Origin: Xenococcus sp. PCC 7305
GTDB taxonomy: Bacteria > Cyanobacteriota > Cyanobacteriia > Cyanobacteriales > Xenococcaceae
NCBI RefSeq assembly: GCF_000332055.1
Contig: NZ_ALVZ01000184.1
Span: 1 to 43,918, forward strand
DNA: 43,918 bases
Direction of reading: 5' to 3'
Below the pieces are notes generated by a model that was given only the letters and a program-made list of their open reading frames with translations, was not told where the DNA came from and did not search any database. How positions within the stretch are numbered: position 1 is the stretch's first letter; each line of letters starts with the position of its first letter. The position numbers and the translations under genes were made by a program. Below are positions 15,307 through 21,306 of this stretch, in pieces.

Positions 15307-15756
15307 TTATGCAGCGTTAGACTTACTCTTAGGTAATGATACCGAACGAGCCATTTCCCGGAATTTATTTAAACTTGCTCCTGGGCGACGATTAGGATTT
15401 GGTTTAGGAATCAAATAATTATTAGCAAAAGTGTTTTCGTCAGTTTCACTTTGGTTACTATTCTTCTGGTAAACAGCATTAATAATTAATTGCTCCACAT
15501 TATCAACTGCTCTATAGACTTTTGCTGTCGAAGCGACTGAAGTAGCTTGGGAATTGATTGGTTCTTCTTGCCCTTTGCTGTCCAATTTTGTCTTCGGAGC
15601 TGACCCAGTTACGACAACAGCTTCATTATTTACATCTGTGCTTGATTGATCATCGTCGATTTCCAGAAAAAATCCCTCAGATTTTTTTCCCCAAGGCAGT
15701 AGATTTTTGACGAAAGAAACTATGTTCTTGACGAAAGAAATTATTTTATTAAACAT
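15307..15756 (-). CDS. Cyanobacterial hypothetical protein
   Basis: A 149-residue protein with an amphipathic N-terminal helix (MFNKIISFVKNIVSFVKNLL), a variable acidic and serine-rich middle, a short conserved helix (VDNVEQLIINAVYQK) and a basic end block NPNRRPGASLNKFREMARSV. The ATG at 15756 is preferred because the upstream 37 residues in the longer frame look non-coding; no clear Shine-Dalgarno site precedes it. It is divergent from the phycobilisome cluster, so the two could share regulatory DNA. I do not recognise a named family. The amphipathic helix suggests membrane contact. Confidence 0.55.
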   Translation of the reverse strand: MFNKIISFVKNIVSFVKNLLPWGKKSEGFFLEIDDDQSSTDVNNEAVVVTGSAPKTKLDSKGQEEPINSQATSVASTAKVYRAVDNVEQLIINAVYQKNSNQSETDENTFANNYLIPKPNPNRRPGASLNKFREMARSVSLPKSKSNAA

Positions 15757-16328
15757 TTTTTGGCTTTTAAATAAATTGATTACGATAAGGTGGAAGACTT
15801 TGTAACAAGACTCTAAGGTTGTGAAATACAAGTTCAGACAATCATCTATCTTCAGTTGATTACACAAGTCATGAATGCACGAAATATATTTTATCTTCTA
15901 CCACTAAAATCTAATTCTTAGAGACAAAAATTAATTTTCGCAACAAAAGTTAACAAAATCCAGATTAAATATAAATCAAGGAAAATGGCCTGAGCAGTTG
16001 TCGTGACCCTTAATATTTAAAAAAGTTTTTATAAGTTAAAGTTCAGTAATAAGCCTTTAAGCTTAACTAATCTTCATAAAAATCAATCAATTTTCATTTT
16101 CTTGGGGAATCATTGCACATTGTTTGCACAGACAATTTGATTCAATGGTTTCAGTCTCAAAACCACCGAATTTTCTAACTTTAGGAAATTTTTCAGTGTT
16201 GAAGATTAATTTTTAAAATCAGTACAAATTGTTGACTGTTTTTTCATCTAAAATTGTAAGTCAGCAATTTTAGGGTTCAGTTTTCCCAATCGGATTTTTT
16301 TACAAATCAATATTCAGGAGAATAGTTT
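15757..16328. other. AT-rich upstream region of the phycobilisome cluster
   Basis: These 572 bases between divergent genes contain no supported gene. A long untranslated leader is normal for cpc operons. AGGAG lies just before the cpcB ATG (16315-16319 region). I could not fix a promoter: TTGACT near 16230 has no well-spaced -10 element. Confidence 0.5.
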
Positions 16329-16847
16329 ATGTTGGATGCTTTTACGAAAGTGGTTTCCCAGGCCGATAACCGTGGTCAGTTAGTGAGCGATACGCAAATT
16401 GATGGACTCTTGGCTATGGTAAAAGAAGGTGCCAAACGCACTGATGCGGTGAATCGGATTACTAGTAATTCCTCCGCGATCGTCACTAATGCAGCACGAG
16501 CATTGTTTGAAGAACAACCTCAATTGATTGCTCCTGGGGGTAATGCTTACACCAGTCGCCGGGTTTCTGCTTGTCTGCGGGATATGGACATTGTTTTGCG
16601 CTATGTCACTTATGCCGTATTCCTAGGCGATGCTAGTGTGATGGAAGATCGTTGCTTGAACGGTCTTAGAGAGACCTATGTGGCTTTGGGGGTTCCCACT
16701 TCTTCTATGGCGACTAGCATTCTGAAAATGAAAGAAGCGGCTATTTCGGTAGCAAATGATCGCAACAATATCACCCCAGGTGACTGTAGTGCTTTGATGG
16801 CTGAAATAGCAAGCTATTTTGACAGAGCAGCAGCGGCTGTAAGCTGA
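16329..16847 (+). CDS. cpcB: Phycocyanin-type phycobiliprotein beta subunit
   Basis: A 172-residue beta subunit of phycocyanin type, the exact length of CpcB. Both bilin cysteines are present, Cys82 in SACLRDMD and Cys153 in PGDCSALM, and the methylated asparagine position is Asn72 in [10 protein letters not shown]. The opening [13 protein letters not shown] and closing [12 protein letters not shown] are typical. CpcB and PecB (phycoerythrocyanin) are close in sequence; no pecE/pecF isomerase-lyase is nearby, so phycocyanin is preferred. It is the first gene of a seven-gene co-directional cluster and is followed by its alpha partner after 75 bases. Confidence 0.93.
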
Positions 16848-16922
16848 CATTTGATTAATTCACCTACAATTCACCTAAAAAAGTTTCTATTCATTTAAAA
16901 ATATTCCGGAGATATTATCCTG

Positions 16923-17408
16923 ATGAAGACACAATTAACTGAAGCAGTCGCAACTGCTGATTCCCAAGGACGTTATTTAGGCAACGTTGAGCTGCAAGTT
17001 GCATTTGGTCGCCTGCGTTTGGCTACTGCGGATCTGCAAGCCGCAAAGGCCTTGTCGGCTAAGGCTGAACAATTAGCTCAAGGTGCGGCGAATGCCGTCT
17101 ATCAAGCATTTCCCTACACACTTACCATGAAAGGCAATAACTATGCTTCTGATGACCGTGGTAAAGCTAAATGTGTGAGGGATATTAGCTACTATATTAG
17201 AATTATTCAATACTGTCTGATCGCGGGAGGAACTGGGCCAGCTGACGATTACCTACTAGCAGGCTTGACTGAAATGCACAACAGTTTTGAGTTGGTTCCT
17301 AGCTGGTATGCTGAAGCGCTTAAGTATATAAAAGCCAACCATGGAGTGACCGGAGACCCAGGGCTCGAGCTCAATTCTTACATAGACTACATTATCAACG
17401 CACTCTAA
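16923..17408 (+). CDS. cpcA: Phycocyanin-type phycobiliprotein alpha subunit
   Basis: A 161-residue alpha subunit, one shorter than the usual 162 because the terminal serine is missing (ends YIINAL). The bilin cysteine is Cys84 in [11 protein letters not shown], with Asp87 beside it. Some normally conserved positions differ: [15 protein letters not shown] before the cysteine and [11 protein letters not shown] after it, where typical CpcA has a YLRMVTYCLV-type run. It therefore looks like a diverged paralogue rather than a standard housekeeping copy, and PecA cannot be fully excluded. It pairs with the preceding beta gene, and the rod linker gene starts 12 bases downstream. Confidence 0.9.
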
Positions 17409-17420
17409 AGGAGAAACTAA

Positions 17421-18287
17421 GTGGCAATCACAACAGCAGCATCTCGATTGGGAGTATCTGCCCTTAGCGATCGCAAGCCCCTTGAATTACGTCCCAACTG
17501 GACTCAAGATGATGTGAAATCAGTGATTTATGCTGTTTACCGACAGATTTTCGGCAATGATTATATTATGTTGTCGGAACGGCTAACAGCAACTGAGTCT
17601 TTGCTGTGTAATGGTTCGATTACGGTGCGAGATTTTGTGCGAGCAGTGGCCAAGTCAGAACTGTACAAGCGAAAATTTTTACACGATAACTTTCAAACCA
17701 GGGTAATTGAGTTAAATTTTAAGCATTTGCTAGGTCGTGCGCCCTATGATGAGTCTGAGGTTATTTATCATCTCGATCTCTATCAGAATCAGGGGTTTGA
17801 AGCTGATATCGACGATTACATAGATTCGGCAGAATACGAAGCGAATTTTGGGGAAAATATCGTTCCCTACTACAGAGGTTTTAGCACCCAAGTCCAGCAA
17901 AAGACCGTTGGCTTTCCCCGTATGTTCCAACTATATCGTGGTTATGCAAACAGCGATCGCGCTCAAGCAGCGGGAAAATTATCCCGCCTGGCTAAAGATT
18001 TAGCTGCCAATCGTGCTTCGGCAATAGTTGGGCCTTCGGGTAAAGCAGAAGGATTTGCTTTTCTTCCTGCTCAAAAAGGCGATGCTTCGGTTAGTTCTTT
18101 TGGTGGCTCCAAGGCTTTTGGTTCGGGTCGGCTGTTTCGAGTTGAAGTAGCAGGCATAGGCAAACCTGGTTACCCCAAAGTTCGCAGAGTCAATAAAGCC
18201 GTGATTATTCCTTACGAAGAACTTAGCTCTCATATGAAAAGAGTGCAGCGTCAAGGCGGAAAGATTGCAAGCATTGTCCCAGTTTAG
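17421..18287 (+). CDS. cpcC: Phycocyanin-associated rod linker
   Basis: A 288-residue rod linker that joins phycocyanin hexamers. It begins with GTG behind AAGGAG. The opening [20 protein letters not shown] is the CpcC signature. The PBS linker domain spans about residues 20-150 ([60 protein letters not shown]). A flexible stretch follows, then a C-terminal CpcD-like domain from about residue 237 ([20 protein letters not shown]) to the end. All parts are intact and length is normal. Confidence 0.95.
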
Positions 18288-18358
18288 TTCTTAGTCAAGA
18301 GGCTAAGACAAAAACTTTACCTAAAACCTGATCTATATTTTTTGGAGGAATCTATACA

Positions 18359-18844
18359 ATGAGTATTGTCACGAAGTCCATCGTGAATGCTGACGCCGAG
18401 GCTCGTTACCTGAGCCCGGGTGAACTAGAAAGAATCAAAGGCTTTATTTCTTCTGGTGGTAGTCGTTTACGTATTGCTCAAGTACTTACCGAATCTCGTG
18501 AGCGCATTATAAAAGAAGCGGGAGACGCTCTGTTCAAAAGTCGTCCTGATGTGGTCGCTCCTGGGGGCAATGCCTATGGCGAAGAAATGACTGCAACTTG
18601 TTTGAGAGACTTAGATTACTATTTAAGACTAGTAACCTACGGAATAGTAGCTGGTGATGTTGCCCCGATTGAAGAAATTGGCCTAGTTGGCGTTAAAGAA
18701 ATGTACAAGTCTCTGGGCACTCCGATTGAGGCCGTAGCTCAGGGTATTCGTGAGATGAAGAATATAGCTTTTTCTTTAATGTCTGGGGAAGATGCTGGGG
18801 AAGCTGCTTCCTACTTCGACTATGTTGTTGGAGGTCTACTCTAA
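18359..18844 (+). CDS. apcA: Allophycocyanin alpha subunit paralogue
   Basis: A 161-residue allophycocyanin alpha chain starting [20 protein letters not shown], with the bilin cysteine at Cys81 ([13 protein letters not shown]) and the conserved [17 protein letters not shown]. It differs from typical housekeeping ApcA at several places, for example [34 protein letters not shown] and the end block [11 protein letters not shown]. It lies in a phycocyanin operon rather than next to apcE and apcC, which is unusual. AP alpha normally forms core trimers that pass energy to the terminal emitters; here it could form a base disc for a rod. It is clearly ApcA rather than ApcD-like. Confidence 0.92.
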
Positions 18845-18938
18845 CAAAGAGAGCTAAGAACATTTATCTAGAAAAGTCTTATTTTGCCCTAAGACTACTA
18901 GAACGTTATTCAGACCAGATAGGACTAATAAAAAAACT

Positions 18939-19424
18939 ATGCAAGACGCAATCACTTCTATTATCAACTCAGCTGACGTCCAGGGTCAGTATTTAGGAGC
19001 GCCCGCTTTGGATACGCTCAAGGCTTATTTCCAAACTGGGGAGCTCAGAGTTCGTGCAACTAATACGATTAGTGCCAACGCTGCGGCGATCGTCAAAGAC
19101 GCGGTGGCCAAATCCTTGTTATATACTGACACGACTCGTCCTGGTGGTAACATGTATACCACTCGTCGCTATGCAGCATGTATCCGTGACCTAGACTATT
19201 ATCTGCGCTATGCAACCTATGCCATGCTCGCTGGAGATCCTTCCATTCTGGACGAGCGCGTTCTAAATGGCTTAAAAGAAACTTATAGCTCATTAGGGGT
19301 TCCCGCAGGGACAACTGTACAAGCTATCCAAGCGATGAAAGAAGTTACTACTGGTTTAGTTGGTGATGCGGCAGGCAAAGAAATAGGAGTGTATCTTGAC
19401 TATATCTGCTCTGGCTTAAGCTAA
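18939..19424 (+). CDS. apcB: Allophycocyanin beta subunit paralogue
   Basis: A 161-residue allophycocyanin beta chain starting [20 protein letters not shown]. The bilin cysteine is Cys81 ([16 protein letters not shown]) and the methylated asparagine position is Asn71 ([10 protein letters not shown]). The end block [12 protein letters not shown] is the family standard. It starts 94 bases after apcA. Apart from the first third ([14 protein letters not shown]), it is close to canonical ApcB. No apcC follows. A stable stem-loop separates it from cpcG. Confidence 0.94.
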
Positions 19425-19432
19425 AACCGTCG

Positions 19433-19499
19433 AATTCCTTTTAAGTCGAAATTGCCAGACTTTTTCTGGGACAAAAATTTTAAGATTTTAAAAGGAATT
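19433..19499 (+). promoter_or_regulatory. Long stem-loop between apcB and cpcG
   Basis: AATTCCTTTTAA (19433-19444) and TTAAAAGGAATT (19488-19499) form a perfect 12-bp stem. Within the 43-base loop, CCAGA and TCTGG form a second small hairpin. It starts 9 bases after the apcB stop. Phycobilisome operons often use such structures to attenuate or stabilise transcripts so that linkers are made in smaller amounts than subunits; that role is inferred. Confidence 0.6.
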
Positions 19500-19560
19500 T
19501 TTGGCAAATTGTATTGATATCTATGTGAAGCTTTATTTAAGACTGGAGGTTTATATAAAC

Positions 19561-20256
19561 GTGGCTACCCCTTTACTTGCTTATGTTCCTTCCTGCTCCA
19601 ACCAGCGCGTAGATGCTCTGGGTGCTCGGGATGACGAAGCTATTATTTATTCAACTGATGATCTGTTTTCTCCCACCGAGATGGGTAATCTCATTGATGC
19701 TGCCTATCGTCAGATATTTTTTAGGGCATTTGAGTGGGATCGCGAAGTTTTCTTGGAATCCCAACTGCGAAACCGACAAATTACAGTACGTGATTTCATT
19801 CGTGGCCTCTTACTTTCAAATACTTTTATTGATAGTTTTTACAATAAAAACAATAATTACCGCTTTGTGGAACATTGTGTACAAAAAGTTTTGGGACGTA
19901 AAGTTTATAGTAATTCGGAGAAAATTTCTTGGTCGGCAGTAGTCATGACTCAAGGAGTCAAAGGGTTTGTTGATCAGCTCCTCGATAGTGATGAATATAT
20001 CGAAAATTTTGGGGAGAATACTGTTCCCTATCATCGCCGTCGGATTCTCCCAAGTCGGGCCATGGGAGAGACTCCCTTCAACATTACTTCTCCTCGTTAT
20101 GATGCCTACCATCGCGATCAATTAGGCTTTCCTAAAGGGATTTGGCAAGAGGCTGTTCGCAACTTTATTCCCTACGATAAAAAGCCCAAAACCGGCGATC
20201 CTCGTTTGTTCCTCAAAATGGCGAAAAGTCTGAACTCTAAAGTTACAAATAAGTAA
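19561..20256 (+). CDS. cpcG: CpcG-type rod-core linker
   Basis: A 231-residue rod-core linker. The GTG start at 19561 gives the family N-terminus (V/M)[16 protein letters not shown] and has GGAGG about 12 bases upstream; the longer TTG frame from 19501 is translated hairpin DNA. The PBS linker domain is clear: [72 protein letters not shown]. The C-terminus is short and basic ([13 protein letters not shown]) and lacks the hydrophobic helix of CpcL-type, photosystem I-associated linkers. It should therefore attach a phycocyanin rod to an allophycocyanin disc, such as the one encoded just upstream. Confidence 0.92.
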
Positions 20257-20271
20257 GCTGTAATTAATATT

Positions 20272-21306
20272 ATGAACAGTACTTTAATTGATACAACCAT
20301 TGACAGAATATCAGGATCAACTATCGGATTAGATGAAGATCACAGCCCTGTAGAACTATTTTTGCCTACTTCGTCAGCGGAAATAGCAATAGTAATTCGT
20401 GCTATTTATCGTCAGATATTAGGTAATGCCTATATTATGGAAAGCGAACGTTTAACCGTTGCAGAATCTCTATTACAAGGAGGAGAGATCAGCGTCAGGG
20501 AATTTGTCCGTTGGCTAGCCAAATCAGAGCTATATAAATCTCGGTTTATCAACAATTGTCCACGCTATCGTTCTCATGAATTAAACTTTAAACATCTTCT
20601 CGGACGTGCTCCCGATGGATATAGCGAAACTCTTTTCCACAGTCAAATATTAGATAGTCAAGGTTACGAAGCTGATATTGATTCTTATATTGATAGTGAT
20701 GAGTATCAAAATGTTTTTGGGGAGAATATAGTTCCTTATTATCGGGGTCATAAAACCCAAACAGGGAAGAAATTATTGGGATATACCAATATGTTTAAAA
20801 TGTTGGACAGCGTCTCAACAAGTGACAAAGCAGGAAAAACGGGTAATGCTCCTAGGCTGACTGCTCCAATTATTTATAATAATCCCAACGGTAATGTTCC
20901 TCTGACGGATATTAAAGAACTTCTCCAAAGAGTTCTCAAAACTCAAACTCGTTCTAAATTCAACAAAACTCAGTCTATTTCTGCTGTCCCACAGCCAAAA
21001 TCAGAATCAGCGCAACTAGACTCAGAAATAGCTAAACTGGAAACTCAACTAGCAGAACTACAATCCTTGGCTTCTATTGGTTCTGCCGGGATTAGTCAAT
21101 GGCAATCTTACTATATTGACATTACTGATGTTAAGAGCACTAACTCATCCTACGATAGTTTAAACTTTAGGAATCGGACTAATAGTTCTCAAGATAAACA
21201 AAAACAGATTGCGGCTCTCAAACAACAAGTGGCTCAAGCTCAAAGCTTAGCAGCTCTAGGGAAAGCACGTCTTAATAAATGGCGTGATCGTGTTTTTACC
21301 AAATAG
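20272..21306 (+). CDS. Rod linker with unusual duplicated coiled-coil C-terminus
   Basis: A 344-residue linker. Residues 35-165 form a CpcC/CpeC-like PBS linker domain ([67 protein letters not shown]). Instead of a CpcD domain, the tail carries two related segments: residues 250-279 (IAKLETQLAELQSLASIG then AGISQWQS) and 310-339 (IAALKQQVAQAQSLAALG then ARLNKWRD), 60 residues apart. Each is a heptad-type helix, then L-A-x-(I/L)-G, then a W-containing turn. It starts 15 bases after cpcG, so is probably cotranscribed. I do not recognise this tail from standard rod linkers. Confidence 0.85.
   Translation: MNSTLIDTTIDRISGSTIGLDEDHSPVELFLPTSSAEIAIVIRAIYRQILGNAYIMESERLTVAESLLQGGEISVREFVRWLAKSELYKSRFINNCPRYRSHELNFKHLLGRAPDGYSETLFHSQILDSQGYEADIDSYIDSDEYQNVFGENIVPYYRGHKTQTGKKLLGYTNMFKMLDSVSTSDKAGKTGNAPRLTAPIIYNNPNGNVPLTDIKELLQRVLKTQTRSKFNKTQSISAVPQPKSESAQLDSEIAKLETQLAELQSLASIGSAGISQWQSYYIDITDVKSTNSSYDSLNFRNRTNSSQDKQKQIAALKQQVAQAQSLAALGKARLNKWRDRVFTK

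Follow-up and report, generated by a model that had tools for sequence, protein, structure and literature searches.

The DNA analyzed here (the window, 43,918 nucleotides) is contig C184 of the Xenococcus sp. PCC 7305 assembly (5.93 Mb, 234 contigs, 99.91% complete). At positions 16329-21306 it carries an operon of seven phycobilisome genes, in which a phycocyanin pair (cpcB-cpcA), a rod linker (cpcC), an allophycocyanin pair (apcA-apcB), a rod-core linker (cpcG) and a second linker follow one another on the + strand with intergenic gaps of 12 to 136 bp (Table 1). With a probability that we put at about 0.6, it is a second phycocyanin operon of type-3 chromatic acclimation (CA3), inducible by red light and extended by allophycocyanin genes, which would supply the ordinary ApcE core. 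By the features tested, an L box in the promoter and rca genes in the genome, it would belong with the CA3-controlled phycocyanin operons. Gene content, L box, rca locus, the clade of CpcBA, the origin of ApcAB, the chimeric nature of CpcC and the type of CpcG are read from the sequence, and from them we infer the regulation, the order of the discs and the destination of the allophycocyanin.

An earlier note on this DNA had described the seven same-strand genes, and our analysis recovered all of them at the same positions with their bilin cysteines in place. CpcB, ApcA and ApcB pass the NCBIfam equivalog cut-offs (285 bits against 279, 296 against 270 and 231 against 228, respectively). CpcA reaches 244.5 bits and stays below its cut-off of 269, which indicates that the divergence of cpcA pointed out in that note is real. 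As the note had also stated, no apcE, apcC, apcD, apcF or lyase gene was found between 16329 and 21306, either among the open reading frames (ORFs) or by family search. The same gene run occurs in a different context in one other genome of the genus, Xenococcus sp. MO_188.B8 (G001), where the contig ends inside cpcG. This indicates that the window operon is not an assembly artefact.

The predicted L box and the rca genes

An exact motif search located the direct repeat TTGCACA-N4-TTGCACA upstream of the operon, leaving a gap of 198 bp to the cpcB start. We take this repeat to be the L box of CA3. Both strands of the 5.93-Mb genome hold two exact copies in all, the other one preceding the classic cpcB on contig C223, and the reversed pattern used as a control gave none. 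The classic locus on C223 reads cpcB-cpcA-cpcC1-cpcC2-pcyA-rcaE-rcaF-rcaC. Its PcyA scores 331 bits against a cut-off of 206, the GAF domain of its RcaE matches PDB entry 7ckv at 1.2e-60, and RcaF (a lone receiver) and RcaC (receiver/DNA-binding/Hpt/receiver) were both named from their layout and context. According to the available part of PMC8256508, RcaC, once phosphorylated, attaches to L boxes under red light and activates cpc2 and pcyA. The presence of the L box here and at the classic cpc operon, together with rcaE-rcaF-rcaC in the genome, leads us to predict red-light induction: the window operon is probably red-light inducible and CA3-controlled. Both the L box and the rca locus had been overlooked in the earlier note.

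When up to one mismatch was allowed, 14 sites were found in four genomes, 7 of them perfect (G000 2, G001 3, Waterburya (G018) 2, LEGE 06147 (G003) 0). Six of the perfect sites precede cpc operons, and the remaining one, on contig C73 of G001, does not. That the repeat stands before cpc operons beside rca genes in several genomes supports its naming as an L box. In Waterburya agarophytonicola KI4 the accessory operon, the counterpart of the window operon, itself adjoins rcaE-rcaF-rcaC: its apcB is directly followed by a kinase with an RcaE-like GAF domain (PDB 7ckv, 2.5e-60), a single-receiver protein and an RcaC-like regulator. LEGE 06147 also has an accessory operon, but no L box was found before it within four mismatches. 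A scan for promoters and terminators was uninformative (17 and 4 sites against 12.6 and 5.0 in shuffled sequences).

An accessory phycocyanin clade

A CpcA scan of 84,980 species genomes yielded 299 relatives, of which the best 80 were kept; among these best 80, 19 loci stand at 79-94% identity and the others at 73% or less. In a 96-row tree of CpcB plus CpcA, the window and those 19 loci form one 20-row clade (support 100/100) that is patchy in occurrence and separate from the classic copies with L boxes. In 388-genome samples, matches were obtained in 9 genomes at the order level (E up to 1e-88) and in 21 at the class level (E up to 1e-85), classic copies among them. This analysis led to a set of 23 distinct accessory operons, namely the window, the 19 from the scan and three further ones. 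Weaker class-level matches (G550, G456, G424, G559 and a second one in G627), a locus lacking accessory CpcA (G394) and a classic copy (G271) stand outside this count.

The usual plan of these operons is a divergent cpcG next to cpcB-cpcA-cpcC1-cpcC2: cpcG is present in 20 of the 23 and divergent in 17, and cpcC1 is present in 19, these absences being upper bounds because several loci are cut by contig ends. The window resembles this module in its CpcB, CpcA and CpcG and in the C-domain of its CpcC. It differs in that apcAB is added, cpcC1 is absent, cpcG lies downstream, the N-domain of CpcC is replaced and an extra linker is present. The L box was found with at most one mismatch before 12 of the 23 operons (8 perfect), with two mismatches before 1, with three before 2 and with four or more before 8. 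In Desmonostoc muscorum FACHB-395 (L115) and a relative (L250) the accessory cpcB-cpcA is found by itself, with neither linkers nor cpcG beside it, close to genes for sensors and response regulators. In Xenococcus G001 (L112) and Waterburya (L118) the accessory operon is located within a few kb of a classic L-box cpc operon; in the window genome the two lie on different contigs.

Profile searches of the window genome gave 21 matches to PF00502 and 21 to PF00427. Besides the classic locus on C223, the genome has an 882-residue ApcE-type protein followed by apcA, apcB and apcC on contig C221, and a CpcL followed by cpcB and cpcA on contig C196, after which come putative cpcE and cpcF genes that were named by reading, without a family search. 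The window genes are thus additional to an apcE-apcABC locus and to two further cpcBA pairs. The earlier note had proposed a paralogous accessory set, provided that a second cpcBA and an apcE-apcABC locus exist elsewhere and these are not the only cpc and apc genes of the genome. Both loci are present, and the proposal stands together with the separate CpcBA clade. No second, far-red ApcE was detected by the PF00502 and PF00427 searches of the 234-contig assembly, in which the frame on C221 is the single one of ApcE type.

Origin of the allophycocyanin pair

Three of the 23 accessory operons, those of the window, G001 and Waterburya, carry apcAB, and each of these is preceded by a perfect L box and is without cpcC1. 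In a 24-row tree of ApcA plus ApcB, the window and Xenococcus copies group with the housekeeping copies of their genus (100/100) and the Waterburya copy with those of its own genus (95/94 for protein, 94/99 for DNA). A single clade of the three accessory pairs is rejected (p 2.7e-15 for protein, 3e-37 for DNA). The two accessory pairs of the window genus are joined in the DNA tree (95/89) and apart in the protein tree, and their joining is not rejected (p 0.41). The window pair is about 90% identical to the housekeeping pair of its own genome. Comparison of the copies with their own housekeeping genes gave ratios of nonsynonymous to synonymous divergence (dN/dS) of 0.02-0.09 at synonymous divergences (dS) of 0.62-1.05, so that purifying selection on the copies is strong. 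In Waterburya, the apcB copy is followed by about 107 bp that match the spacer between the apcB and apcC of that genome (score 107 against a maximum of 30 in 200 shuffles), and no remnant of the apcB-apcC spacer follows the window apcB (score 17 against 30 in shuffles). The separate origins of ApcAB and the spacer remnant in Waterburya alone point to two insertions: apcAB seems to have been added separately in the genus Xenococcus and in Waterburya, each time from the lineage's own housekeeping pair.

We consider it less likely that apcAB was instead inserted once in an ancestor, or came with one transferred operon, and was later converted by the housekeeping apcAB of each lineage, a history that would leave the function unchanged. 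Such a history would account for the shared place and order of the genes (cpcC, then apcA and apcB) and for the loss of cpcC1 in each genus. The tests also do not reject a clade uniting the window, Xenococcus and Waterburya for CpcC (p 0.31), for CpcG (p 0.51) or for all four proteins together (p 0.39). The rejection of a joint ApcAB clade weighs against this history, as do the spacer stretch found in Waterburya and not in the window and the dS values, which show no recent conversion. Moreover, the Waterburya CpcBA groups with Phormidesmis (97/94), a joint CpcBA clade being borderline (p 0.03), and a chimeric CpcC occurs in the window genus and not in Waterburya.

A chimeric rod linker

Residues 1 to about 200 of CpcC (PF00427) are of the classic type and residues 206-288 or so (PF01383) of the accessory type. 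Over successive 40-residue segments, identity to the classic CpcC2 of the family is about 80-95% up to about residue 200 and about 40-47% thereafter; identity to accessory CpcC proteins is about 48-80% initially and 78-90% at the end. Trees of the separate domains place the N part with the classic CpcC of the family (98/92) and the C part with accessory CpcC (100/99), and approximately unbiased (AU) tests gave p 0.006 against a classic C-domain and p 0.037 against an accessory N-domain. By these sequence comparisons, the window CpcC is a chimera of a classic N-domain and an accessory C-domain. It is shared by Xenococcus G001. The whole-protein tree was discarded as misleading, because the window protein fell between the classic and accessory types until the domains were split. 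The CpcC alignments do not include the cpcC of Alkalinema (L122), whose frame is split.

In the solved phycobilisomes covered by the available part of PMC8448738, the PF00427 domain of CpcC lies in the core-distal hexamer and that of CpcG in the core-proximal one, and no PF01383 domain is observed there in rods without cpcC. Partly on this last ground, the C-domain of the window CpcC would lie in the inner hexamer, and this placement of the domains leads to the proposed order of core, accessory disc, classic disc. The divergence that the earlier note read from cpcA and apcA in favor of a paralogous set is not uniform across the genes: it holds for the CpcBA clade, but not for ApcAB or for the N-domain of CpcC.

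The rod-core linker and the second linker

In an alignment of 14 accessory CpcG proteins with the rod-core CpcG and the CpcL of the window genome, the accessory CpcG aligns with the rod-core CpcG through the core-binding extension. Judged by eye, the CpcL ends in a hydrophobic stretch and the window CpcG has no hydrophobic C-terminal helix. A soluble core-binding extension without a membrane helix makes attachment to the ordinary core likelier than a core-free antenna, and a CpcL-like antenna without a core was rejected as a candidate for this reason. The earlier note had envisaged an antenna detached from the normal core and similar to that of Acaryochloris; the detachment is at odds with this CpcG, and the likeness fails because this genome has ApcE. 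The ORF caller starts cpcG at a TTG at 19501, but the alignment of relatives and the sequence favor the GTG given in Table 1.

With its single domain, the second linker belongs to a family that also has two-domain forms (585-618 residues) and, in this genus, a seven-domain form of about 2000 residues. In G001 the contig ends within cpcG, before any gene for this linker. The AlphaFold model of the linker had a mean predicted local distance difference test score of 41.5 and was not used. The seven-domain form is encoded on contig C113 (L074:8317-14340, - strand) as a 2007-residue linker with seven PF00427 domains, and contig C217 of G001 has a 2010-residue open frame with matching parts. In the available part of PMC12525769, linkers with three domains are described as peculiar to Gloeobacter; from the frames found here, multi-domain rod linkers seem to be wider than described.

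Proposed working of the operon and alternatives

In red light, RcaE would phosphorylate RcaF and then RcaC, which would bind the L box at 16113-16130 and turn on the window operon together with the classic cpc operon behind the same box. The hexamer next to the core would consist of the accessory CpcB and CpcA; the accessory CpcG would hold it and, through its extension, dock on the ordinary ApcE core. The chimeric CpcC would join both kinds of disc, reaching with its accessory-type C-domain into this inner hexamer and with its classic-type N-domain into the following hexamer of classic phycocyanin. The added ApcA and ApcB would most likely enter cores organized by ApcE and ApcC, as a supply of red-light isoforms. 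Somewhat beyond this, and more tentatively, the products may build a composite red-light antenna that reaches the core, with the induced allophycocyanin and the dedicated rod-core linker at the base, accessory phycocyanin above them and then classic phycocyanin attached by the domain-swapped linker; the two genera would have converged on it independently, each by its own apcAB insertion and loss of cpcC1.

Several observations weigh against an induced operon that supplies the ordinary core. The absence of co-encoded apcC, apcE and lyase genes means that the use of housekeeping partners has to be assumed. The identity of the repeat with the L box of Li et al. 2008 is presumed. Ten of the 23 accessory operons have no L box within two mismatches, so CA3 control does not extend to every copy of the accessory phycocyanin module. 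In the PDB, the sensor on C223 matches 8k9o best (6.6e-72), an entry named just histidine kinase that ranks above RcaE (7ckv). Finally, most relatives of the window CpcG keep a terminal VPYR tail that it does not have, and this could weaken its docking.

The architecture that the earlier note had in mind, phycocyanin rods with ApcA/ApcB as the innermost disc, held by CpcG and partly or wholly independent of the tricylindrical core, appears unlikely to us. It agrees with the position of apcAB between the rod linker and the rod-core linker, with the absence of apcE and apcC from the operons that bear apcAB, and with the lack of cpcC1 in 3 of 3 such operons against its presence in 19 of the 23 accessory operons, as if allophycocyanin had replaced a rod layer; the available part of PMC13259208 also describes Acaryochloris rods with a minor basal allophycocyanin population. 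Rods of that type, however, accompany the absence of ApcE, and this genome has a full apcE-apcABC locus. The soluble extension of CpcG speaks for docking on a core, and an ApcAB pair so close to the housekeeping one should fit the ordinary core. A disc of allophycocyanin at the foot of the rods is conceivable all the same. It is very improbable that these are redundant antenna copies kept for dosage with no special role, their L box inherited from a copied cpc promoter. The closeness of ApcAB to the housekeeping pair and the likeness, by eye, between the accessory and classic promoters in their first bases would suit this explanation, but it is countered by the purifying selection on ApcAB, by an L box and a gene order that are conserved in G001 and Waterburya, and by the old and distinct accessory CpcBA clade.

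Comparison with known systems

CA3 is usually described as an exchange of outer rod discs on a constant core. In a figure legend of PMC11377992, allophycocyanin (the core) and an inner layer of phycocyanin are shown whatever the light; the window operon carries apcAB. It resembles the CA3 cpc2 operon of Fremyella diplosiphon and Synechococcus sp. PCC 7335 in its promoter L box, in the presence of rcaE-rcaF-rcaC and pcyA in the genome, and in having phycocyanin and a rod linker under the box. It differs from cpc2 in that its CpcBA falls in another clade than the L-box classic copies and in that apcA, apcB and cpcG are included. With the CpcL-type rod phycobilisome it shares a dedicated cpcBA with its own CpcG-family linker, but the hydrophobic C-terminal helix is missing from this linker, and the CpcL type is encoded on C196. 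The far-red light photoacclimation (FaRLiP) and low-light photoacclimation (LoLiP) clusters encode far-red or low-light allophycocyanins without cpcBA. Light color controls allophycocyanin paralogues in these clusters, as is predicted for the window operon, but the window ApcAB is close to the housekeeping ApcAB. In view of this closeness, a far-red kind of ApcAB found no support, and a FaRLiP/LoLiP identity of the operon was rejected, since the allophycocyanins differ and the LoLiP-like set has no cpcBA. As in the phycocyanin/allophycocyanin rods of Acaryochloris, phycocyanin with a smaller share of allophycocyanin is conceivable here, but Acaryochloris marina is without ApcE (PMC13259208, available part) and the window genome has it.

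A literature search whose reach excluded most subscription journals found no report of an L-box operon with apcAB. An L-box operon that includes allophycocyanin and a rod-core linker suggests that light color can also tune the composition of the core or base. As a domain swap that arose in nature, the chimeric linker would predict which of the two disc types is the inner and which the outer one, and this is structurally testable. That separate genera seem to have added apcAB repeatedly speaks for selection in its favor.

Other features of the window and genome

Table 1. Features of the accessory phycobilisome operon in the window.
Feature	Position	Strand	Basis
Perfect L-box direct repeat TTGCACA-TTGT-TTGCACA, predicted RcaC site	16113..16130	+	exact motif search
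Accessory cpcB (phycocyanin beta, 172 aa, Cys82 and Cys153)	16329..16847	+	ORF, NCBIfam, tree
Accessory cpcA (phycocyanin alpha, 161 aa, Cys84)	16923..17408	+	ORF, tree; under NCBIfam equivalog cut-off
Chimeric rod linker cpcC (PF00427 and PF01383)	17421..18287	+	ORF, domains, per-domain trees
apcA copy (161 aa, Cys81), from housekeeping apcA of the genus	18359..18844	+	ORF, NCBIfam, tree
apcB copy (161 aa, Cys81), from housekeeping apcB of the genus	18939..19424	+	ORF, NCBIfam, tree
cpcG rod-core linker, accessory clade (GTG start, 231 aa, PF00427 only)	19561..20256	+	alignment, domains
Second linker (one PF00427 domain and helix-rich tail)	20272..21306	+	ORF, domain search

The C-terminal 99 residues of CpeA (177 bits, partial) are encoded at the ends of both contigs C161 and C117 (L070:13224-13523, - strand, and L071:64-363, + strand), and CpeA is complete in the sister genome G001. 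The same piece ending two contigs indicates that the phycoerythrin operon was broken by assembly. Contig C228 (L066:7303-10066, - strand) encodes ApcA-like and ApcB-like proteins and a chlorophyll-binding light-harvesting protein (390 bits against a cut-off of 335), a set that is presumably LoLiP-like. Clustering of conserved neighbors returned mainly shadow ORFs of the linker genes, the useful group being response regulators. Divergently from the operon, the window encodes a small protein (15307-15756, - strand) with the end sequence NRRPGASLNKF, which has relatives in 21 of 27 genomes of the family and no match in Pfam or NCBIfam. A 414-residue linker on contig C111 (L075:7613-8857, - strand) has both ends as in this protein with a PF00427 domain between them, the common ends hinting at a phycobilisome role for the small protein.

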